From IMG/VR virus record IMGVR_UViG_3300046694_000136, positions 62,001 to 126,000 of that record: 64,000 bases of DNA; one strand, 5' to 3'. Positions 4,212-30,976 of the stretch are shown here, piece by piece. The translations under genes were made by a program, and so were the position numbers. Within the stretch, counting starts at the first letter, position 1, and every line of letters starts with the position of its first letter. This DNA is from a virus. A model generated the notes under the pieces. It had not been told where the DNA came from. It saw only the letters and a program-made list of their open reading frames with translations, and did no database searches.

Positions 4212-5681
4212 CTATTCGAATAGTTCTTTCGTGATCACACGAATCACCATGTACAGTGACAGAGCAGTCCGTGTGGTTAGGACCCATTGCGGGGTCTTAC
4301 GCCCAGTGATGTCAATTACGATCTTGTCACCCAACTCTCGGATGATTTTAACCTGGTCGTTGTTACTGCGAGAAGCCCCGTACGCACCACGCATCTTAAT
4401 CAATACGTCGTACACGTTACTCCGCTTAATACCATTGGCATGCAAGTATTCAAACATGTGCAAAACAATGGTTTCAGCAAACGTTTTGTAATCGGGGTAC
4501 TTCGGGTTGTTGTACCGCTTAGCAAACTCCTGGATCGAATACTGGAGCATCTCCATACGGACGTTATCCAACACACCCGCAGCGTACTCCATCAGTTCCT
4601 CTTTGAAGAACGAACTCTCTTCAGTAAGGATCCGGTCCAGATAAAGAACATGGGCGGTTACATCTTTCGCCACGCTCTTGATACTTAATTCGTCCTTCAG
4701 TTGAACTTTAGCGGACTCAACTTTTACGATGTTGGTTTTGTTCTTCACATCGTGGAAGACTTTGTTGATGTCGTTAATAGCCCGACGCAACCGGTTCTGG
4801 ATATCACCCACCATGTAGACAATCTTCTTGTCGTTGTCCATCTTGGACCACGCTTCGTAGTGAATTCCCGTCTTAGGGTTGATGATGTACTCAGCACGAG
4901 CCTCGATGAGGGCCTTCCAGCTACCGTAGCGCTTGATGTCGTACTTCAGGCTCAAGCGGTTATAGGTCTCGTATACGACTTCCTTACGAGCTTGGAACGG
5001 ATAGTCATTATGTACGATGCTGGTCAGGCACTTGTAGTGATACATGGAAACCACGTCCACCATAGCCCGGTGTTTCTCATCCGCTTTCAACGTACTCTTG
5101 TTGATACGGAACAAGAGGTAAGGGACGGTCATGTTGAACGCGTCGCCTACGACCGCCCACTCGCTCTTGATCGCGGCGCAAGCGTGCAGGTTTTCCCGCA
5201 GCTCATCTTCATCGCAGTCAAAGATCTCGTTGAACCACTCGTTACGGTCAGCCGTGGTGAAGGTGATCTTCTCCAGACCAAGGTAAGGTGCGCCGAAGAA
5301 CGCCATGTGGTCGTGCATCCCAACTTTACGAGTGATGAAGTTGTAGACGTACTTCTTAAGGGTAAGGGCCCACTTAGAGTTAACCTCCAAGTACTGACCC
5401 ATCTTTTCGAAGACTTGCAGGATGGCGTTGGTGCTTTCGAAGTTTACCCCTTGCAGGAGCGCTTCCATCCCTGCTACATCACTCAGTTCATACTGAGGAG
5501 GTGAAGGCTTGGCGAACTCGTGAGGGTGTCTGTCTTGAAAGAGACCGAGGTATTGATCAGGTACAAAGATCGAGGGTTGCTTGTTCCAGTACTCGTTCTC
5601 AGCTTCCTCAGCCGCTCGATCCGAACTGAGGTCTTCTGGGTTGTACTGAACCGGTACTCGGCTGAAATCTAATTCTGACAT
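4212..5681 (-). CDS. Uncharacterised 489-aa protein, probable virion or assembly component
   Basis: 489 aa. ATG at 5681 follows an excellent AAGGAGG site and is preferred over an upstream in-frame ATG at 5708. The protein is highly charged and largely helical, with Tyr-rich segments and no recognised catalytic motif. Its centre (about residues 290-340) is lysine/aspartate-rich and could form a coiled coil. It lies between the 282-aa gene (5692-6540) and the 235-aa gene with ~10-bp gaps. A structural role is suggested only by location next to the terminase. Confidence 0.6.
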   Translation of the reverse strand: MSELDFSRVPVQYNPEDLSSDRAAEEAENEYWNKQPSIFVPDQYLGLFQDRHPHEFAKPSPPQYELSDVAGMEALLQGVNFESTNAILQVFEKMGQYLEVNSKWALTLKKYVYNFITRKVGMHDHMAFFGAPYLGLEKITFTTADRNEWFNEIFDCDEDELRENLHACAAIKSEWAVVGDAFNMTVPYLLFRINKSTLKADEKHRAMVDVVSMYHYKCLTSIVHNDYPFQARKEVVYETYNRLSLKYDIKRYGSWKALIEARAEYIINPKTGIHYEAWSKMDNDKKIVYMVGDIQNRLRRAINDINKVFHDVKNKTNIVKVESAKVQLKDELSIKSVAKDVTAHVLYLDRILTEESSFFKEELMEYAAGVLDNVRMEMLQYSIQEFAKRYNNPKYPDYKTFAETIVLHMFEYLHANGIKRSNVYDVLIKMRGAYGASRSNNDQVKIIRELGDKIVIDITGRKTPQWVLTTRTALSLYMVIRVITKELFE

Positions 5682-5691
5682 GGGGTCCTCC

Positions 5692-6540
5692 TTATGTTCT
5701 GCGAGCAATGCCCATGCGTTGAGCGTCGTGTACGTTCTGCTTGTCGCTCCAAGTCATGCAAGGAGTCCAAACCTTCAGGAAGTATTCCTTGTAGTTAGTC
5801 CACGCATCCTTGTACTCAGCGATATCGTCTTTGATATCCGAGAGCGCAACACCCATCTTGACAGCGGCTTCGTTAACCGGGCTTTTCAGTTTACGGTACA
5901 AGTACGCTTTAACACCCAGCTCTACCAGCTCAGCGAACTGCAAGTAGTGGTGAGCGTGGATGCTGCTCATCGCTTCGTCGTATTCCATGATGACCTTGGC
6001 ACTCATGTTAAAAGTACCCATGTTGATACCGAAGATCACAAAGACGTTGTTACCCGTCATCTGGCAATCGGTATAGGTCTGCGGCATGGACTTGTTACCG
6101 GCCATGTTGTTAATCATGGAACCCATCATTTCGTTCACAACACCAGAACCACACTCAGCGTCGTTACCCACACCGATGCCCAGCTGACCGATAGCCGAGT
6201 TCATGGAACCGAGGTAGCACTCAGTCACCGAAACAATCTTGGCACCTCGAGTGGTCATCTCAGGAACCTTAACTTCTAGGCAGCCGTTACCGATACTGCG
6301 CATCTCTGAACCACCGAGGTCCAGGTACTCTGTCTTACCACCACCGACCTTACAGTCAGGCAGGATCAACTGGTGGATAATCTTTTCACGGATACCTTGT
6401 TCAATGGTGGTCTCGTTGACCATGTTGTACCAGTTACCGAGTACGTTGGCGTTCTTGTTAGCAAAAGCCAATTCAAAAAGGTACTCACTGATGTCGGAGT
6501 TCAAAACCCGACTGATAGCAAAATCTACTGGGTTACCCAT
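5692..6540 (-). CDS. Putative abundant structural protein (282 aa)
   Basis: 282 aa, ATG at 6540 with AAAGGA ten bases upstream. The centre is rich in Gly, Asn and Met (for example NEMMGSMINNMAGNKSM, about residues 136-152), and the C-terminal third is helical and aromatic. No enzymatic motif seen. It is the first gene of the five-gene minus-strand unit, with a long leader that carries a repeated CAATCAAAGGA and a short overlapping reading frame. Size and position next to the terminase are compatible with a tail tube or similar repeated virion protein, but the sequence alone does not show this. Confidence 0.55.
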   Translation of the reverse strand: MGNPVDFAISRVLNSDISEYLFELAFANKNANVLGNWYNMVNETTIEQGIREKIIHQLILPDCKVGGGKTEYLDLGGSEMRSIGNGCLEVKVPEMTTRGAKIVSVTECYLGSMNSAIGQLGIGVGNDAECGSGVVNEMMGSMINNMAGNKSMPQTYTDCQMTGNNVFVIFGINMGTFNMSAKVIMEYDEAMSSIHAHHYLQFAELVELGVKAYLYRKLKSPVNEAAVKMGVALSDIKDDIAEYKDAWTNYKEYFLKVWTPCMTWSDKQNVHDAQRMGIARRT

Positions 6541-17807: not shown

Positions 17808-17900
17808 TAGTACGAATCGAAGATATAAATGTGTGTAGGCATACACTGTGCGATTCTGCTAACAGTCACCCTTTCTTAAGAAAAGATGGAGTTATACCTT

Positions 17901-19886
17901 ATGGCCGTTCAACAAAACCGCAAAGGCGCGGGCAGCAATTCCTGGGATGGTAAAAATGGCAACGCCGCAGAGTTCTCCGCTCTGTCGGAACTCTTCCATA
18001 CCCCTTCCATGTCGTCCGACAACCGCCAGTTGCCGGAAGTTGATGAGGTGATCGAGATCCTCAAGAAGGGCTACACTGCGATGAGTGAATCCACCATCCA
18101 GCCTGCCCAACGCGCAATCATCCCGACTGTCGACAAAGTGTCGCCTGTCATCAGCTCCACCCTGCCGGGTCTGGTAATGCACCGCCTGGTCGGCCAGAGC
18201 GTCTGGGTCATGCTGGTACTGTTCTCCAACAAGGACAACGCCATCGCGACCGAAACCGTTCAAGTGCTTCAGCCTATGGGCATGCCGCACAAGACCTCGG
18301 TCCTGCTGACCCCGACCAACTACTTCACCCACGAGCTGGTCGACAACCTGAAGAAGCACTTCAAGGGCGTCCTGGAAAACGAAGGCCTGAAAGGCGAAGT
18401 CGAGATCATCAACCTGATGACCGAAGACTTGGAAATGCTGCAACACTCCCAGGCCGGTGAGCCGAAAGAGCGTCCACAGCGCATCGCCAACTACCTGAAA
18501 GGCGAGTGGGAAACCGCGGTGTTCTGCAAACTGTCCTCGGAGTATCCGAAGCACAAGCAGACTCTGCCTTCGCCGTTCAAAGATCCTGATGCACCGTACG
18601 GCAAAGACGGCTGGGCCGAAGCACGCGTTACCGCAATCGACGGCAAGGTCTCCCGCGCCGGCACGCTGATGCCGTCCAACATGGAACTGGTGATTTCGAC
18701 CACCAACAACCCGAACAGCAGCAACAACAACCAGAACAACCCGAACTCGAAAGGGATCGTGCGCGCTCTGGCTACTGTTCAGTTGTCGGCCATCAGTTAC
18801 CAAATGCACATGCAGAACATCGCGGCCATCTCGCAGGCCGGCGGTCAAGCCGATGCTATCCAGGCGTTCCTGGGCATCAACGGCGGCATGTACATGAACG
18901 GCTACCGTCCGCTGCACCCGGTCATCACTCTCGACCACGCCAACGCGGAAGAGATGATGAACTACAACAACGGCCTGTTCCCGCACTACTACGCGCTGTT
19001 CGCGCTGATGTGCACCAACACCGACTACATCTTCACTGAACCACTGCGTCGCGCCAACGTCGGCTCCCGGGGCAACCTGAGCTCCTTCGAACCGCGCATC
19101 GAACAGCTGGTTGCTCAGGCGTTCACCGGTGTTCGTCCAGTAATGGACGACAAGACCATCCTGGACACCGAAGCAGTCAACAAGTGGATCCACCAGAACA
19201 TCTCGCCGAACGCTCTGTTCCGCAGCAACGTGATCCTGGGCGGCCTGTCGTCCCCGGTGAACAAGCACCTGGAAGTTCTGTCGGATCCGGTCCTGGCCAA
19301 CCGTCAGTCGGCGGTACAAACCATGATCGCGGTAATGGACGCAATCTCCAAAGGTCGTTTCTCGCAGATCGTTGCGGAAAACGTCAAGTCTGGCAAAGGC
19401 TGGAAGCCAGGCGATGTTGCGCTGCACCGCACGAAGATGATCGCGGTGAACGGTCTCGCGAAGAACCCACAAGGTCGCGAGCTGAACACCCTGGAAGTCG
19501 ACGAAATGTACCTCGGTACTCACAAAGGTAAGGCTGGGCTGCAACAGTCCATGAACTACCTGAGCGTGCTGTACGGCACCAACAACGAAGAAGTTCGTTC
19601 GCGTTGCCAGAAGCTGCGTATCGAAATGACCACCGGTCTGTTCGATGGTCACGTGCACATCAACAACTTCGGTTACTCCTGCGTCTGGGATCCGCATCTG
19701 ATGGCTGTTATCGGTGCCGCTCTGTCGGAAATCGGTACGCTGAACGTTGCGAACACCTACAGCTCGATGCGTCCGAACAACATGGCGTTCATGCCAATGG
19801 CTGGTCTGCAAACCGTTACGTCGGTCGGCAACAGCAACAACATGAACCTCCTGGGTGGTTTCGGTAACGGCGGGATCTGGGGCTAA
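17901..19886 (+). CDS. chmA: Chimallin-like major nuclear shell protein
   Basis: 661 aa from the ATG at 17901, which has GGAG nine bases before it; an in-frame ATG at 17886 lacks a ribosome site. ChmA (phiKZ gp54, 201phi2-1 gp105, about 600-630 aa) forms the square lattice enclosing phage DNA. Support: position directly before the RNAP beta' N-terminal gene, as gp54-gp55 in phiKZ; matching length; early promoter; very strong codon bias fitting an abundant protein; and flexible polar N- and C-terminal segments. A low-complexity Asn/Ser insert lies at about 274-284 (NNPNSSNNNQNNPNS). Ends GFGNGGIWG, nearly the same as the 29462-30976 product. Identification rests on context and general features; no structural comparison was possible. 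Confidence 0.75.
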   Translation: MAVQQNRKGAGSNSWDGKNGNAAEFSALSELFHTPSMSSDNRQLPEVDEVIEILKKGYTAMSESTIQPAQRAIIPTVDKVSPVISSTLPGLVMHRLVGQSVWVMLVLFSNKDNAIATETVQVLQPMGMPHKTSVLLTPTNYFTHELVDNLKKHFKGVLENEGLKGEVEIINLMTEDLEMLQHSQAGEPKERPQRIANYLKGEWETAVFCKLSSEYPKHKQTLPSPFKDPDAPYGKDGWAEARVTAIDGKVSRAGTLMPSNMELVISTTNNPNSSNNNQNNPNSKGIVRALATVQLSAISYQMHMQNIAAISQAGGQADAIQAFLGINGGMYMNGYRPLHPVITLDHANAEEMMNYNNGLFPHYYALFALMCTNTDYIFTEPLRRANVGSRGNLSSFEPRIEQLVAQAFTGVRPVMDDKTILDTEAVNKWIHQNISPNALFRSNVILGGLSSPVNKHLEVLSDPVLANRQSAVQTMIAVMDAISKGRFSQIVAENVKSGKGWKPGDVALHRTKMIAVNGLAKNPQGRELNTLEVDEMYLGTHKGKAGLQQSMNYLSVLYGTNNEEVRSRCQKLRIEMTTGLFDGHVHINNFGYSCVWDPHLMAVIGAALSEIGTLNVANTYSSMRPNNMAFMPMAGLQTVTSVGNSNNMNLLGGFGNGGIWG

Positions 19887-25615: not shown

Positions 25616-26305
25616 ATGGCACAGCCAAACAACAACGCCCGCCGCAAGACCATCTTCGACGACTGGAAACAGCCTCAAGCCGCTACCATTGATCCGGTAC
25701 AAGGCGGTAAGTATCCGGCGACCTGGATTATCCAGCAGAAGTCGAACGGCAAGATCGTCATGAAGATCAACGACGGTATCTACGATCCGAACTCCAAGTC
25801 GAACGTCCACAAAGAAGTGGAGATGAACTGGTCGGACCGTAACGCCCTGATGGAAGGCATCAAGGAGGCCTGCGCGGATCCATCGTTCGAAACCAGCCAG
25901 CTGGTCGTTCGTAAGAAAGACTTCATCAAGTCCGGTGGCCAGAGCAAGATCTCTGACAACCCGATCGTTAAGGCGATGTTCACCATCGACCGCGACAAGA
26001 ACTCCGGCGTGATCAGCGTGACCTACCGTAAAGGTGAGTACAACGCCAAGATCGTCTTCCGCGGTGCCAACGACACCGTGCTGTACCGTAAAGACTCCAC
26101 CGGTAACAAAGTTGAAGACCATGGCACCCTGTCCCGTTGGGCGGCCAAGGCCTGGGTTAAGTGGCACCAGGATCCAGTGAACCAAATGGAACGTGAGATG
26201 TACGAGCCGCCTGCTCCTAAAGAAGGCGCATTCCCTGCCAAGAATGACAAGCCTCGTAACGATAGCGACTTCGATTCGTCCTATGACGACGACGCCGACT
26301 TCTAA
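25616..26305 (+). CDS. Candidate single-stranded DNA-binding protein
   Basis: 229 aa. Basic, aromatic-containing beta-rich body followed by a disordered Pro/Asp-rich tail that ends SDFDSSYDDDADF. An acidic tail with terminal Phe is the protein-docking signature of bacterial and phage SSBs (for example E. coli DDDIPF and T7 gp2.5). No canonical OB-fold signature was recognised. The strong codon bias implies abundance, as expected for an SSB. Neighbours: the Mre11-like nuclease upstream and an RNAP subunit downstream. Own terminator at 26322. Confidence 0.55.
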   Translation: MAQPNNNARRKTIFDDWKQPQAATIDPVQGGKYPATWIIQQKSNGKIVMKINDGIYDPNSKSNVHKEVEMNWSDRNALMEGIKEACADPSFETSQLVVRKKDFIKSGGQSKISDNPIVKAMFTIDRDKNSGVISVTYRKGEYNAKIVFRGANDTVLYRKDSTGNKVEDHGTLSRWAAKAWVKWHQDPVNQMEREMYEPPAPKEGAFPAKNDKPRNDSDFDSSYDDDADF

Positions 26306-26387: not shown

Positions 26388-26417
26388 CAGTGTGTTAGGT
26401 AGCCTCTGGAGTTGCTG

Positions 26418-27977
26418 ATGTTAACGATTGAAGTTATTCGAAAATCCATGAAGGGAATGAAGGCTATGGTTGTAGCCCTCAATGAACACTCCCTCAGGTT
26501 TAACGGCGACAACTCTATTAAACTGGAGAAGTCCAACAAGGGTAATATTAAGTCACAGGAAGGTAAACTGTTTGATGCGTTTAACGATTATGTTGAACGT
26601 TACTTTGATTCTGAAGAACGGCTAGCGTTATACAAGCTGTACGAGAAAGCTCACCGGATCTGCGAGAACCCGACTTACCGTGGGTACAAAGTAGAACTGC
26701 CTGAGATCAAACCGATCATCAACCAGATCTTGGATTTCATCCAGCCAGCTCGGTTCATGGACTTCGTCGGTAACTCTCGGCATCTGGTGATTCCTCCAGA
26801 GTTGAATGTGGCAGCCAGCAAAGGGTACTACCCTGCTGAAACCACGATCACCGAAGAACATTACGTTCACTTGGTGAAGATGACTCTGCTGGTTCGCAAC
26901 ATCTATCCGATTATCTTCTCGCTGACGTATCGTTATGCTGGGTTCATGAACATGAGCTTTGCAGAATTCGTTTGCGGTGACTTGATCAAGGACAACCCTC
27001 ACATCATCAATACCGAGGGCTGGCGTAAGCTGTTGCTGTATGTGGATTATTCATTCAAGAAGCGTGGGGAACCGTTAAAGGTCGACGGTGTGGGAAGCAT
27101 GGAGTATTTCGTGGAGCATGTGCTCTACAATACTGTCTTCACACGTTTGTGCTGTGCCATTATTCCGGAAACGGAAGAAGGCAAGAACTTGGCAACTGCG
27201 ATCAACGCTGCTGTACGGCAGCATGAGTCCAGTGGCGCTAAGTGGCGTCGTAAGGACGACGGTTATGAAGGGGAAGAAGAGAAGCGTTCGCTGTATGAGC
27301 GTTATCAAGCGAAAGAGGACGTTAAGTCTACCGACGAAGAAGTTGAAGCTGAATTCTTCTCGATGGGTTTGATGGACGAGTGCGACAATGAACGTCACAC
27401 GGATCGCTTTGCCATCCCATGCATGTCACTGGGCATCAAGCAGCCAGATCTTGTAGAGAAGATCTTCGACAACATCCCACCCAACTGGGAGTTCGAGCTT
27501 GCACCTCACAACCTTAAATTACTGCAAATGGTATTTAAGGGTGACATTTCTATCATGATTTACTGGGCGGCTAACTATACCCAACTGATGGCAGCCATTG
27601 CGCTGGCTCAGGTTCGGTTAGCTGAATGGGGTTACGAGTACCTCCCGACTATTGTTGGGGCTATTCATGATCCAAACGGCATGCGGTCTATTGCCGATAT
27701 TCTGAAGTTGACCTCGACGGATAAAGATTATCTGGAGAGTATCTGTGACGTCCAAAGTAGAAACGATGAGGGTCGATCCTTCAACGAAGCTATTGAAGAC
27801 GCTACCGACTTCTTGGAAGGTCTTGCAGCGGGTCAGTGGAAATCCAACTTGGAGTATGGTGTTCTTAACGAACTCGAGATTTACGATCGAGTCGAACGCG
27901 GTGCCTTGTTTGAGATCGAGATTGAACCCAAGATACGTGAAGAGTTTATGCGTTTGGTTAGGCAAATCAGCGAATAA
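26418..27977 (+). CDS. Probable fifth subunit of the non-virion RNA polymerase (phiKZ gp68-like)
   Basis: 519 aa from ATG 26418 (GGAG seven bases upstream; a TTG at 26412 is less likely). No catalytic motif of its own. It lies between the gp55-like and gp71/73-like genes exactly where phiKZ carries gp68, which binds the nvRNAP and is needed for promoter recognition. Mostly helical, rich in charged residues, with an acidic/basic linker at about 277-312 (KWRRKDDGYEGEEEKRS). It has its own early promoter. Assignment is by synteny and size, not by sequence comparison. Confidence 0.55.
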   Translation: MLTIEVIRKSMKGMKAMVVALNEHSLRFNGDNSIKLEKSNKGNIKSQEGKLFDAFNDYVERYFDSEERLALYKLYEKAHRICENPTYRGYKVELPEIKPIINQILDFIQPARFMDFVGNSRHLVIPPELNVAASKGYYPAETTITEEHYVHLVKMTLLVRNIYPIIFSLTYRYAGFMNMSFAEFVCGDLIKDNPHIINTEGWRKLLLYVDYSFKKRGEPLKVDGVGSMEYFVEHVLYNTVFTRLCCAIIPETEEGKNLATAINAAVRQHESSGAKWRRKDDGYEGEEEKRSLYERYQAKEDVKSTDEEVEAEFFSMGLMDECDNERHTDRFAIPCMSLGIKQPDLVEKIFDNIPPNWEFELAPHNLKLLQMVFKGDISIMIYWAANYTQLMAAIALAQVRLAEWGYEYLPTIVGAIHDPNGMRSIADILKLTSTDKDYLESICDVQSRNDEGRSFNEAIEDATDFLEGLAAGQWKSNLEYGVLNELEIYDRVERGALFEIEIEPKIREEFMRLVRQISE

Positions 27978-28004: not shown

Positions 28005-29450
28005 ATGGCTGAAATTACTACTGTACTGCAACGCGCTTATTTTGGTATCGGCACGACTCAACACGACCACGTGCACCGGCATAGCACGTTGCATCTGGAG
28101 AACGTCGAGATCGACCGACTCCGTCACGAACAAGAGAAGGGCGGGATTCTTCCCAAGACTCTCCACGACGTCGCAATGAACTCCGGTCAGCTCTGCTCGC
28201 AGCCTCAAGGCTATGTCTCGGTTGAAGAAGGTATGAACATGCGTCGTGGCATCTGCCTCCTCCAGTTCGAGATCTATTCGAACGCGGCAGAAGCGTCCAA
28301 CATGTCCGTCGTCTGCTACTTGGTCGGCGGTAACAGCTCAGCCGAGAATGGCCTGGATCCTACTACTCGGATTCAACCGGTTCGTTGCTGGAGCACGCTG
28401 ACCTCGCAGACCAACGATGCCCAAGGCTATCCAACTGTTCGCCAAGTCGTCGACACTACACACCAGTTCCTGCTGGGGGATCCGTACGGCGCTAAAGAAA
28501 TGGCGGCAGTGCGTCCGTATGACGTGGCCAGTGCTGCATTGGGCTTTGCTGTCAGTGATGGTGACGGCTCCGCTCAGAACTATTGCGGTGTAGCCAACTC
28601 CGACCTGACCAATCAGTTGCTGATGTCGAAGACTCAGAACCTGAACCCAACTCACTACGCGAAAGAGCTGTTGAAGTTGGCGGTACAGACTGGCGATGAA
28701 GTCAGTCAGAACGGTCAAGACATGGCGTGGGCTATTGGTGACTACATGACCACCAGCAGCCTGAACGAGATCTCTCCGCACGATAACCCATTCATGCAGA
28801 CCATGATGAGTGTGCTGAGCGTTCACAGTCTGGCAAGCTTCCGTGGTTGGTCGATCGATGAAATGGTTGAAGTATGGCCAAACTTCCTCGACGTACTGAA
28901 CCTGGACAACATGGACGTAACCAAGTTCGCTGCCGATGATACTACGTTGGTCACCAGCGACTACGGTCGTGTGAACCAGCACGAGATCATCGCATCCGAA
29001 GCGGCCATGATGTGTGTACACCAACTGCTGGCGTGCGGTCTGATGTCGTATCAGTTCAGCGCGACCAACAACCCGACGGCTTTCGACGGGATCGGTGGTG
29101 ACGAAGGTGGCGGTGTATCGTTCTCTCCAGGCAAGGCAATGTCGGTTCTGGATAACGACACCAACATGGAAGGTCGTACCGAAACGTTCAACCGTCAGTT
29201 CACTGATGCGTTCTTCGCCAAGTACACTGGTCCGTACGCTCACCTGCGAACGCTCATCAACCTGAACATGGAGTGTCATATGTTCGGTGAGACCCGCGTG
29301 ACCATCTCGTTCGGTAACGAGTACCACAACGGTAAAACGTTCAGCAACGCAACCTATTACATTAACCATTCCAGTTCTTCCATCTCTGGTACCGAGAACG
29401 GTCTTTCAGAGTCCCGGAACTACTTGAGCAACATCAAGGAATACTTCTAA
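28005..29450 (+). CDS. phiKZ gp69-position protein, candidate nuclear import factor (PicA/Imp1)
   Basis: 481 aa, ATG 28005 preceded by GGAG. Alpha/beta with few charged clusters and no recognised catalytic motif or membrane segment. In phiKZ the gene after gp68 is gp69, described as an import factor associated with chimallin (Imp1/PicA). The same position here is the only ground for the name. Codon bias is strong, indicating abundance. The gene is 11 bp from the 29462-30976 gene, suggesting that the two are expressed and may act together. Alternative: another shell-associated or structural protein. Confidence 0.45.
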   Translation: MAEITTVLQRAYFGIGTTQHDHVHRHSTLHLENVEIDRLRHEQEKGGILPKTLHDVAMNSGQLCSQPQGYVSVEEGMNMRRGICLLQFEIYSNAAEASNMSVVCYLVGGNSSAENGLDPTTRIQPVRCWSTLTSQTNDAQGYPTVRQVVDTTHQFLLGDPYGAKEMAAVRPYDVASAALGFAVSDGDGSAQNYCGVANSDLTNQLLMSKTQNLNPTHYAKELLKLAVQTGDEVSQNGQDMAWAIGDYMTTSSLNEISPHDNPFMQTMMSVLSVHSLASFRGWSIDEMVEVWPNFLDVLNLDNMDVTKFAADDTTLVTSDYGRVNQHEIIASEAAMMCVHQLLACGLMSYQFSATNNPTAFDGIGGDEGGGVSFSPGKAMSVLDNDTNMEGRTETFNRQFTDAFFAKYTGPYAHLRTLINLNMECHMFGETRVTISFGNEYHNGKTFSNATYYINHSSSSISGTENGLSESRNYLSNIKEYF

Positions 29451-29461
29451 GGTGACCCGCC

Positions 29462-30976
29462 ATGAATGAACTCAATAAGCTGTACAAGGACATGCTGTTG
29501 TCCTGGAACACCCAAGTCAAAACTGATGGGCGTATCCTGCTGGACTTGGACGGCGATGAGTATCCCATCACCATCGACGGGATGAACCTCTACCTGCCGA
29601 CTACTGACGTCCTCGACGAAGTAGCAGTGGGCAAGGTCTTCTTCCACCCAGCGTGTGAAGATATCACCTCGAAGGAAACCGAAGTCTTCAAGGTGTTGCG
29701 TAAGGTTACTTCCTTGCGTCTCCTGAGCGCCTTCCGTTCGGTCCCTCCGGTGTTGCTACCGCTTGCAGGTCCTAAGCCTAAGAGTTCGTGGAACCAACGC
29801 GTGCTGGACCTCCTGGAGCCTCTCAAGAGCGCTAAAGGCGCCGTGGTTAAAGAACTGACGGATCTGTTCGGTCGTCTGCATGTGGAAGTTGAAGAGAACG
29901 GTCTGGATAACCGCTTCGTCCACTTCAAGACCACCAAGTCCAGCGGTAAGTTGTCGAAGGCTACCGGCGAGAAGGTTTACTACACCACCAAGCCGGAGTT
30001 CCCGTTCTACAACGAACTGGTTCGCCGTCTGGCTCGTACCGAAGGCAAGACCGACAACCAGCAGATCGAAATCAACAACCACAGCGTGTCTCGTGCTGCG
30101 GTGAAGTTGGCTATCCATCTGTTCCAGCACATCGTTCCAGCAGTGCTGTCGCCAGACGATCACGTCCACGAAGCGAATACTCCGATTGCAGCACGTATGG
30201 TTTCGTACCTGGGCTGTTACGCAGATATCGCCGAGCAGATCAACAAGGTCCAAGGTACCTTCCGGGCAGAGTTTGCCAAGGCCGGTATCTACCCGATCAA
30301 CTTGAGCTGGACCGAAGATCTGGAAAACCTGCCTGAGTGGTATAAGCAGGTTCCGAAGATGGACTACAACACCCACAACACCCACGAAGAAACCGTCCAT
30401 CAAGCAGCAGGACGTCAAGACTTCGCCGGGCTGATGTCGGTAAGTAGCAACATCAACCAAACGCCGGTCCAACAAACCCCGGGTAGCCAAGTGCAACAAG
30501 CGGGTGCAGGTATTGACCCAATGACTGGCTTCGTGATCACTCCACCACCTCAAGTGCTGGCGTCTGACCGCCTGACCCGTTACGAGTGCAACTTCGGTAC
30601 TGGTCGGGTGACTCACTACGGTGTTGACACTCTGACCAACCTGCCGGTCATGTACATCTGTACTCGTCAGGGTTCGTTCTTGGAGCGTCAAACTCCAAAC
30701 CCTAATGCCGGCATGATGAACATGTTGGGTGGTTTCAACATGGGCATGGGTGGCATGGGTGGTATGAACGGCATGGGTGGTATGGGTAACATGAACCTGA
30801 TGGCCCAGCCACAACTGCTTCCGAATGGCATGATCCAATTGCCAAACGGTCAGATCATTCACCCGGCTCAGCTTCAACAGCAACAGCAACCTGTGATGCC
30901 AACCGGTTCTCCAAGCGTAACCAACTTGGATAACAACAGCGGTAGCGGCTTCAGCAATAGCCCGGCCTGGGGTTAA
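29462..30976 (+). CDS. phiKZ gp70-position protein with chimallin-like C-terminal peptide
   Basis: 504 aa, AAGGTGA before ATG. The first ~300 residues form a folded alpha/beta/helical part. Residues ~315-360 are Gln/Thr-rich linker. About 415-445 is a Met/Gly repeat (NMLGGFNMGMGGMGGMNG). A Gln-rich stretch (QLQQQQQ) follows, and the protein ends GFSNSPAWG. Chimallin ends MNLLGGFGNGGIWG. The shared GF-x-N-x3-WG terminus suggests docking to the same surface of the shell lattice. Function otherwise unknown. Ends at a 17-bp perfect bidirectional terminator. Confidence 0.6.
   Translation: MNELNKLYKDMLLSWNTQVKTDGRILLDLDGDEYPITIDGMNLYLPTTDVLDEVAVGKVFFHPACEDITSKETEVFKVLRKVTSLRLLSAFRSVPPVLLPLAGPKPKSSWNQRVLDLLEPLKSAKGAVVKELTDLFGRLHVEVEENGLDNRFVHFKTTKSSGKLSKATGEKVYYTTKPEFPFYNELVRRLARTEGKTDNQQIEINNHSVSRAAVKLAIHLFQHIVPAVLSPDDHVHEANTPIAARMVSYLGCYADIAEQINKVQGTFRAEFAKAGIYPINLSWTEDLENLPEWYKQVPKMDYNTHNTHEETVHQAAGRQDFAGLMSVSSNINQTPVQQTPGSQVQQAGAGIDPMTGFVITPPPQVLASDRLTRYECNFGTGRVTHYGVDTLTNLPVMYICTRQGSFLERQTPNPNAGMMNMLGGFNMGMGGMGGMNGMGGMGNMNLMAQPQLLPNGMIQLPNGQIIHPAQLQQQQQPVMPTGSPSVTNLDNNSGSGFSNSPAWG

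Follow-up and report, generated by a model that had tools for sequence, protein, structure and literature searches.

Two questions are raised by the gene considered here: what holds accessory proteins on the ChmA lattice of a phage nucleus, and how an import complex comes to be built at one spot on that shell. The gene lies in a stretch of 64,000 nucleotides (the window), positions 62001-126000 of the 234.5-kb record IMGVR_UViG_3300046694_000136, a virus with 229 predicted proteins genome-wide; all features of the window described below are on the plus strand. Judged from its ChmA, nvRNAP, and import genes, the window phage is an EL-type member of the Chimalliviridae; a near-identity DNA search of GenBank phages with the window returned no match. 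The gene in question (29462..30976) encodes a protein of 504 aa. A preliminary description had noticed that this protein and chimallin end in similar peptides, and it proposed that the protein inserts its tail into the groove that joins chimallin subunits and is thereby anchored to the nuclear shell.

By tblastn, PHROGs, and synteny, the 504-aa protein is an orthologue of phiKZ gp70 (PHIKZ070), PhiPA3 gp64, 201phi2-1 gp126, and EL gp035, proteins that are alike in sequence, length, and gene order. It matches phrog_3520 over residues 1-464 (E 1.9e-93), and tblastn gives 54% identity to EL gp035. PHROG 3520 is listed with function unassigned, Pfam contains no match for the protein, and sequence searches of Pfam and the PDB returned nothing informative. 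Its gene is flanked by picA on one side and nvRNAP beta on the other, in an order (gp68, an nvRNAP subunit; picA; gp70; nvRNAP beta) that is conserved in the window and its relatives. The phiKZ gp68-like nvRNAP subunit (26412..27977; phrog_3209) served as the anchor gene for sampling, and PicA/Imp1 (phiKZ gp69), a protein-import factor, is recognized at 28005..29450 by phrog_3141, synteny, and alignment; this PicA lacks the C-terminal extension of the phiKZ type. Further upstream, synteny and an acidic tail identify a protein like ChmC (phiKZ gp67; 25616..26305). This protein and its orthologues in L012, L013, L022, and L023 have acidic tips whose last residue is Phe (DDDADF, DDVEF, DEDIPF, DDDIDF), much like the DDDIPF tip of bacterial SSB.

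An AlphaFold2 model of the single 504-aa chain, built with 36 relatives, divides the protein into a folded core (residues 1-303, 29462..30370; pLDDT mostly >85), a small beta-sheet domain (residues 365-415, 30554..30706; four strands, E369-410), and a Met/Gly/Gln-rich tether (residues 417-495, 30710..30946; pLDDT <50) that carries indels even between close relatives. The tail motif GFSNSPAWG (residues 496-504, 30947..30973), defined by sequence comparison and proposed here as a docking peptide, stands at the very end of a disordered stretch spanning residues 417-504, or 88 residues. A structure search with the core found no PDB fold match at E <0.001; clear structural matches to the core came solely from viral proteins of unknown function, several of them from jumbo phages, and these uncharacterized proteins apparently belong to the gp70 family. 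The best PDB match, VIA (Z 5.4), covers no more than 63 residues, all in the small beta domain, and settles nothing about the fold.

ChmA of the window phage (666 aa, 17886..19886; phrog_4795) has the chimallin two-domain fold, after which its model leaves about 43 C-terminal residues as a free tail. The model matches solved chimallins with Z 27-30 over about 490 residues (Z 29.8 and rmsd 4.2 over 493 residues against 8fne_A; Z 28-29 against 201phi2-1). Structural agreement stops at model residues 623-626, which correspond to 201phi2-1 residues 581-584; the free tail (residues 623-666, 19752..19883; pLDDT <50) is thus equivalent to the CTS1-CTS2 region, and its last 10 residues, GGFGNGGIWG (19854..19883), occupy the position of CTS2, the last 10 residues in 201phi2-1 (PMC9365700). 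Since both models are disordered here, ChmA and gp70 alike would display the motif on flexible ends.

The two tails, GFSNSPAWG in gp70 and GFGNGGIWG in ChmA, are where the preliminary description placed them, and their resemblance exceeds chance. Over the last nine residues the BLOSUM62 score of ChmA against gp70 is 32, and the runner-up among the genome's 229 predicted proteins reaches 12, so that the suggestion to look for the motif at other C-termini of the genome ends with a wide margin in favor of ChmA; seen from the gp70 side, ChmA ranks first among the 228 other proteins. When the last 30 residues were shuffled 200,000 times, only six shuffles attained the tail score, and among 3141 C-termini from 14 genomes a score of 32 is reached only by gp70 and its orthologue. 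In the nearest relatives, three in IMG/VR, gp70 ends in GFGNSPAWG (twice) or GFGNSPSWG, and ChmA invariably in GFGNGGIWG. The pattern GF[SG]NSP[AS]WG is thus kept, while the Met/Gly linker ahead of it gains and loses residues.

A second element of the original claim, an N-M-N-x-LGGF-like segment preceding both tails, holds for ChmA, in which MNLLGGF comes directly before the tail, and fails for gp70. There MNMLGGF is residues 419-425, within the Met/Gly-rich linker and about 70 residues upstream of the tail. The internal ChmA-like segment MNMLGGFNMG (30716..30745) scores 39 in the window against 22.7 when shuffled; in the next relative the score is 24 (p 0.49), no better than a shuffled linker. 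We consider the segment unconserved and probably incidental, and have dropped LGGF as a second gp70 motif. The second-best match to the ChmA tail, a 114-aa protein ending ISSYWG (G000 5052-5396, outside the window), was likewise rejected; its orthologue in the sister phage G002 has no such tail. A separate 320-aa protein of G002 (117291-118253) ends in RGVWG, near the ChmA tail of that phage, and its homologue in the window phage ends in GTPIW.

We extended the comparison by taking the tails of ChmA, gp70, and PicA from GenBank phages and from IMG/VR loci located through gp68. Dereplication at 75% gp68 identity left 36 lineages, 14 EL-type and 22 phiKZ-type, in which same-phage tail scores were compared with scores under shuffled phage labels, all 55 pairs of 11 neighboring families serving as controls. 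L015 (PQ516283, Pseudomonas phage vB_PQ1) was excluded from the main statistics; its core genes lie in many fragments, and the record probably contains frequent sequencing errors. Among EL-type phages, ChmA-gp70 is the top pair of the 55 for the last 6 residues (Z 3.2, p 0.002) and the last 8 (Z 3.3, p 0.0008), and the second for the last 4. An aromatic residue falls within the last two positions of gp70 in 13 of the 14 EL-type lineages and of ChmA in 11 of the 14, against a background of 17% of all proteins. The exact motif that matches ChmA is specific to the window's genus and is not conserved across all gp70 orthologues; outside that genus the ChmA match need not stand out within a genome, as in EL (rank 8 of 192 over the last 8 residues) and RisingSun (rank 31 of 180). 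In RisingSun alone, an nvRNAP subunit (L013 5473-7104) ends in QNTPVVE, near the gp70 end DNTPAVF of that phage.

In the 22 phiKZ-type lineages the partner is a different one. There gp70 and PicA match over the last 4-8 residues with Z 5.7-6.6 (p <=0.0002), and the other 54 pairs do not exceed 3.3. The signal persists with dereplication set to 35% (p 0.0001 over 11 lineages), is present separately within the phiKZ-like subclade (p 0.001) and outside it (p 0.0001), and is limited to the last 4-6 residues, being gone more than 6 residues upstream. When 126 orthologous families from nine genomes were scanned against the gp70 tail of the same phage, PicA came out on top, with a mean of 11.6, and the next family reached 3.1. 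The tail pairs (gp70/PicA) are GLGLL/DLGLL in PhiPA3, GFGNI/GFGNI in L119, SFSVV/SFGTV in L128, SYL/DYL in L096, and VNRF/KGNF in Goslar; identity exceeds chance at positions -1, -2, and -4, and the terminal motif is retained on PicA extensions whose length ranges between a few residues and about 70. A third protein of L119 (137 aa; L119 20994-21407, G008 5444-5857) ends in SNGFNNI, like the GFGNI of gp70 and PicA there; we rejected it as a motif carrier, its orthologue in L123's genome having no tail. Between gp70 and ChmA tails, by contrast with gp70 and PicA, phiKZ-type phages show no match. PicA of the window phage ends in NIKEYF at the core helix, has no tail, and so lacks the motif shared by gp70 and PicA; gp70-PicA has Z about 0 for 4-6 residues in EL-type phages, where PicA is tailless. 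The C-terminal motif of gp70 is therefore aliphatic and PicA-like in phiKZ-type phages and aromatic and ChmA-like in the window phage, and the motif shared with PicA is, across these lineages, a more general pattern than the ChmA match first noticed. The preliminary description had held that absence of the motif from both homologues of related phages would tell against it, and on that point the evidence divides: the exact motif is confined to the genus, while having a hydrophobic C-terminal motif in common with some other shell protein is a general trait.

Neighboring genes with matching ends invite the suggestion that the likeness stems from paralogy, from gene conversion, or from overlap of the genes. 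picA adjoins gp70, and the GFGNI codons of L119 are identical in the two genes. In PhiPA3 (L017 17980-18005) the two genes overlap by 26 nt, the end of picA running into the start of gp70, and the PicA tail codons there also encode the gp70 N-terminus. We regard this origin as highly improbable. A profile comparison of gp70 with PicA (hhalign) detects no homology (probability 0.2%) and gives paralogy no support; synonymous codons differ in PhiPA3, 201phi2-1, and L128, so that in most cases gene conversion is not the source of the match; the match is also found in L119 and L123, where the genes do not overlap; and ChmA is 10 kb away. The codon differences and the lack of homology together mostly refute paralogy and gene conversion.

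Another suggestion is that these are generic, low-complexity C-termini rich in Gly, Asn, and aromatic residues, without docking function, whose chance match has been amplified by shared ancestry. The motifs are short, and both proteins have Gly/Asn-rich ends. The comparison of each phage with its nearest sister is also weak, giving a slight within-phage advantage for gp70-PicA (p 0.02-0.07) and for ChmA-gp70 (p 0.04-0.45); this contrast is weak because sisters often have the motif in common, and part of the tail signal is, on these comparisons, a motif common to a clade, tuned to the clade rather than tracked residue by residue. Nevertheless, the shuffle and genome-wide nulls, the permutation controls over 55 pairs, a signal limited to the final 4-6 residues, and the unbiased family scan all argue against a generic tail, and we think it unlikely. 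That gp70 bears a selected C-terminal docking peptide is, from the sequence comparisons, well supported.

What the peptide docks on is a harder question, and the published record on these proteins bears on it. PhiPA3 gp64 localizes to the nuclear shell and was found in pulldowns of ChmB (gp2), its function being unassigned (PMC10643120); since that localization has already been published, the association of gp70/gp64 with the shell is not new, and what the literature we examined does not describe is a mechanism of attachment. In 201phi2-1, ChmA CTS2 (residues 622-631, the last 10) docks on the neighboring subunit, and its deletion blocks assembly in vitro (PMC9365700). PicA (phiKZ gp69) is an essential import factor that forms a single punctum on the shell (PMC11087766). 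PicA-sfGFP fusions, C-terminally tagged by name, still give a punctum at the nuclear rim (PMC11087766), so that a free PicA C-terminus may not be essential. PHIKZ070 is absent from a table of top knockdown hits in which 065-069 are listed (PMC12571901). According to one review, the proteins that the gp64 study identified include Imp3, PicA, and ChmC (PMC12908238), and another review states that Imp1/PicA function requires Imp3; gp70 may be Imp3.

Set against this background, the proposal that the tail enters the chimallin groove and anchors the protein to the shell gains from the location of the orthologue, from CTS2 docking in 201phi2-1, from the disordered tether, and from the co-variation in EL-type phages. 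The narrower reading, in which the groove is the same one throughout, sits poorly with the unremarkable matches in EL and RisingSun and with phiKZ-type tails that match PicA and not ChmA. These observations would fit instead a receptor other than ChmA at the import site, be it a different protein of the shell or import machinery or the core of gp70 or PicA, and this receptor would also receive the phiKZ-type PicA tail. The resemblance to ChmA seen in the window's genus would then be a lineage-specific coincidence of tails rich in Gly and aromatic residues. Such a receptor would account for a gp70-PicA signal far stronger and wider than that of ChmA-gp70, for phiKZ-type ChmA tails that end in aromatics (FY, MY) where those of gp70 and PicA mostly end in L, I, or V, and for the lack of an outstanding ChmA match in EL and RisingSun. 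It does not account readily for the EL-type ChmA-gp70 signal, which remains significant even when the window's own lineage (genus) is removed (p 0.01-0.02), nor for the aromatic turn that EL-type gp70 tails take, like those of ChmA (13/14 against 17%), in phages whose PicA has no tail. We count a separate receptor as a possibility, though not a probable one.

The explanation we lean toward, with confidence a little better than even, is that gp70 is an adaptor at the shell, with a tethered peptide that fits the ChmA CTS2 groove in the window phage and a pocket shared with PicA in phiKZ-type phages. Under this tethered-peptide explanation, gp70/gp64 would be a core shell-associated protein of the Chimalliviridae, its core and small beta domain located at the nuclear shell, and its long disordered tether would display a short docking peptide selected to match a partner protein in its own phage. 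Because the peptide mimics CTS2, the groove of ChmA that receives CTS2 is the leading candidate pocket in the window lineage, and it is plausible, and on this explanation most likely, that the gp70 tail fills it at open or exchangeable lattice sites, which would make for flexible anchoring to the shell. In phiKZ-type phages, gp70 and PicA would probably share a single pocket where import takes place. The EL-type and phiKZ-type pockets may be either one that changed its taste or two. What the analysis itself shows is the tail match with its statistics, the confinement of that match to the terminal residues, and the disorder; the localization of the orthologue and the docking of CTS2 come from the work of others. 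That the tail physically docks, which pocket takes it, and that it has a role in import are inferred.

Each known system offers a partial likeness. ChmA CTS2 of 201phi2-1 (gp105 residues 622-631) and of Goslar likewise stands at the extreme C-terminus on a flexible linker, and in the window phage its letters nearly coincide with those of the gp70 tail; CTS2, however, links ChmA to ChmA, whereas the window motif sits on an accessory protein distinct from ChmA. PicA/Imp1 (phiKZ gp69, PhiPA3 gp63) is encoded by the adjacent gene, is located at the shell, and in phiKZ-type phages carries an extension whose last 4-6 residues match those of gp70, yet it has no detectable homology to gp70, and in the window's group it has no tail. 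The SSB tip and PDZ ligands are C-terminal peptide motifs read by a groove. By analogy, they too are short hydrophobic C-terminal motifs on a disordered tether, and in the case of gp70 the receptor is a candidate pocket only.

A broader possibility is a phage-specific C-terminal "tail code," in which the unrelated proteins gp70, PicA, and, in some lineages, ChmA share a co-varying peptide of 4-9 residues, such that the import and shell parts of each phage plug only into its own shell. We offer this tentatively, rating its chances at somewhat below even. The terminal motif common to gp70 and PicA (or ChmA) nonetheless provides a concrete handle on how accessory proteins are attached to the lattice, and it predicts a pocket. 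The motif may explain why shell and import parts fail across phage species, and the tail code, if true, would go some way toward explaining why phage-nucleus assembly and import are species-specific.
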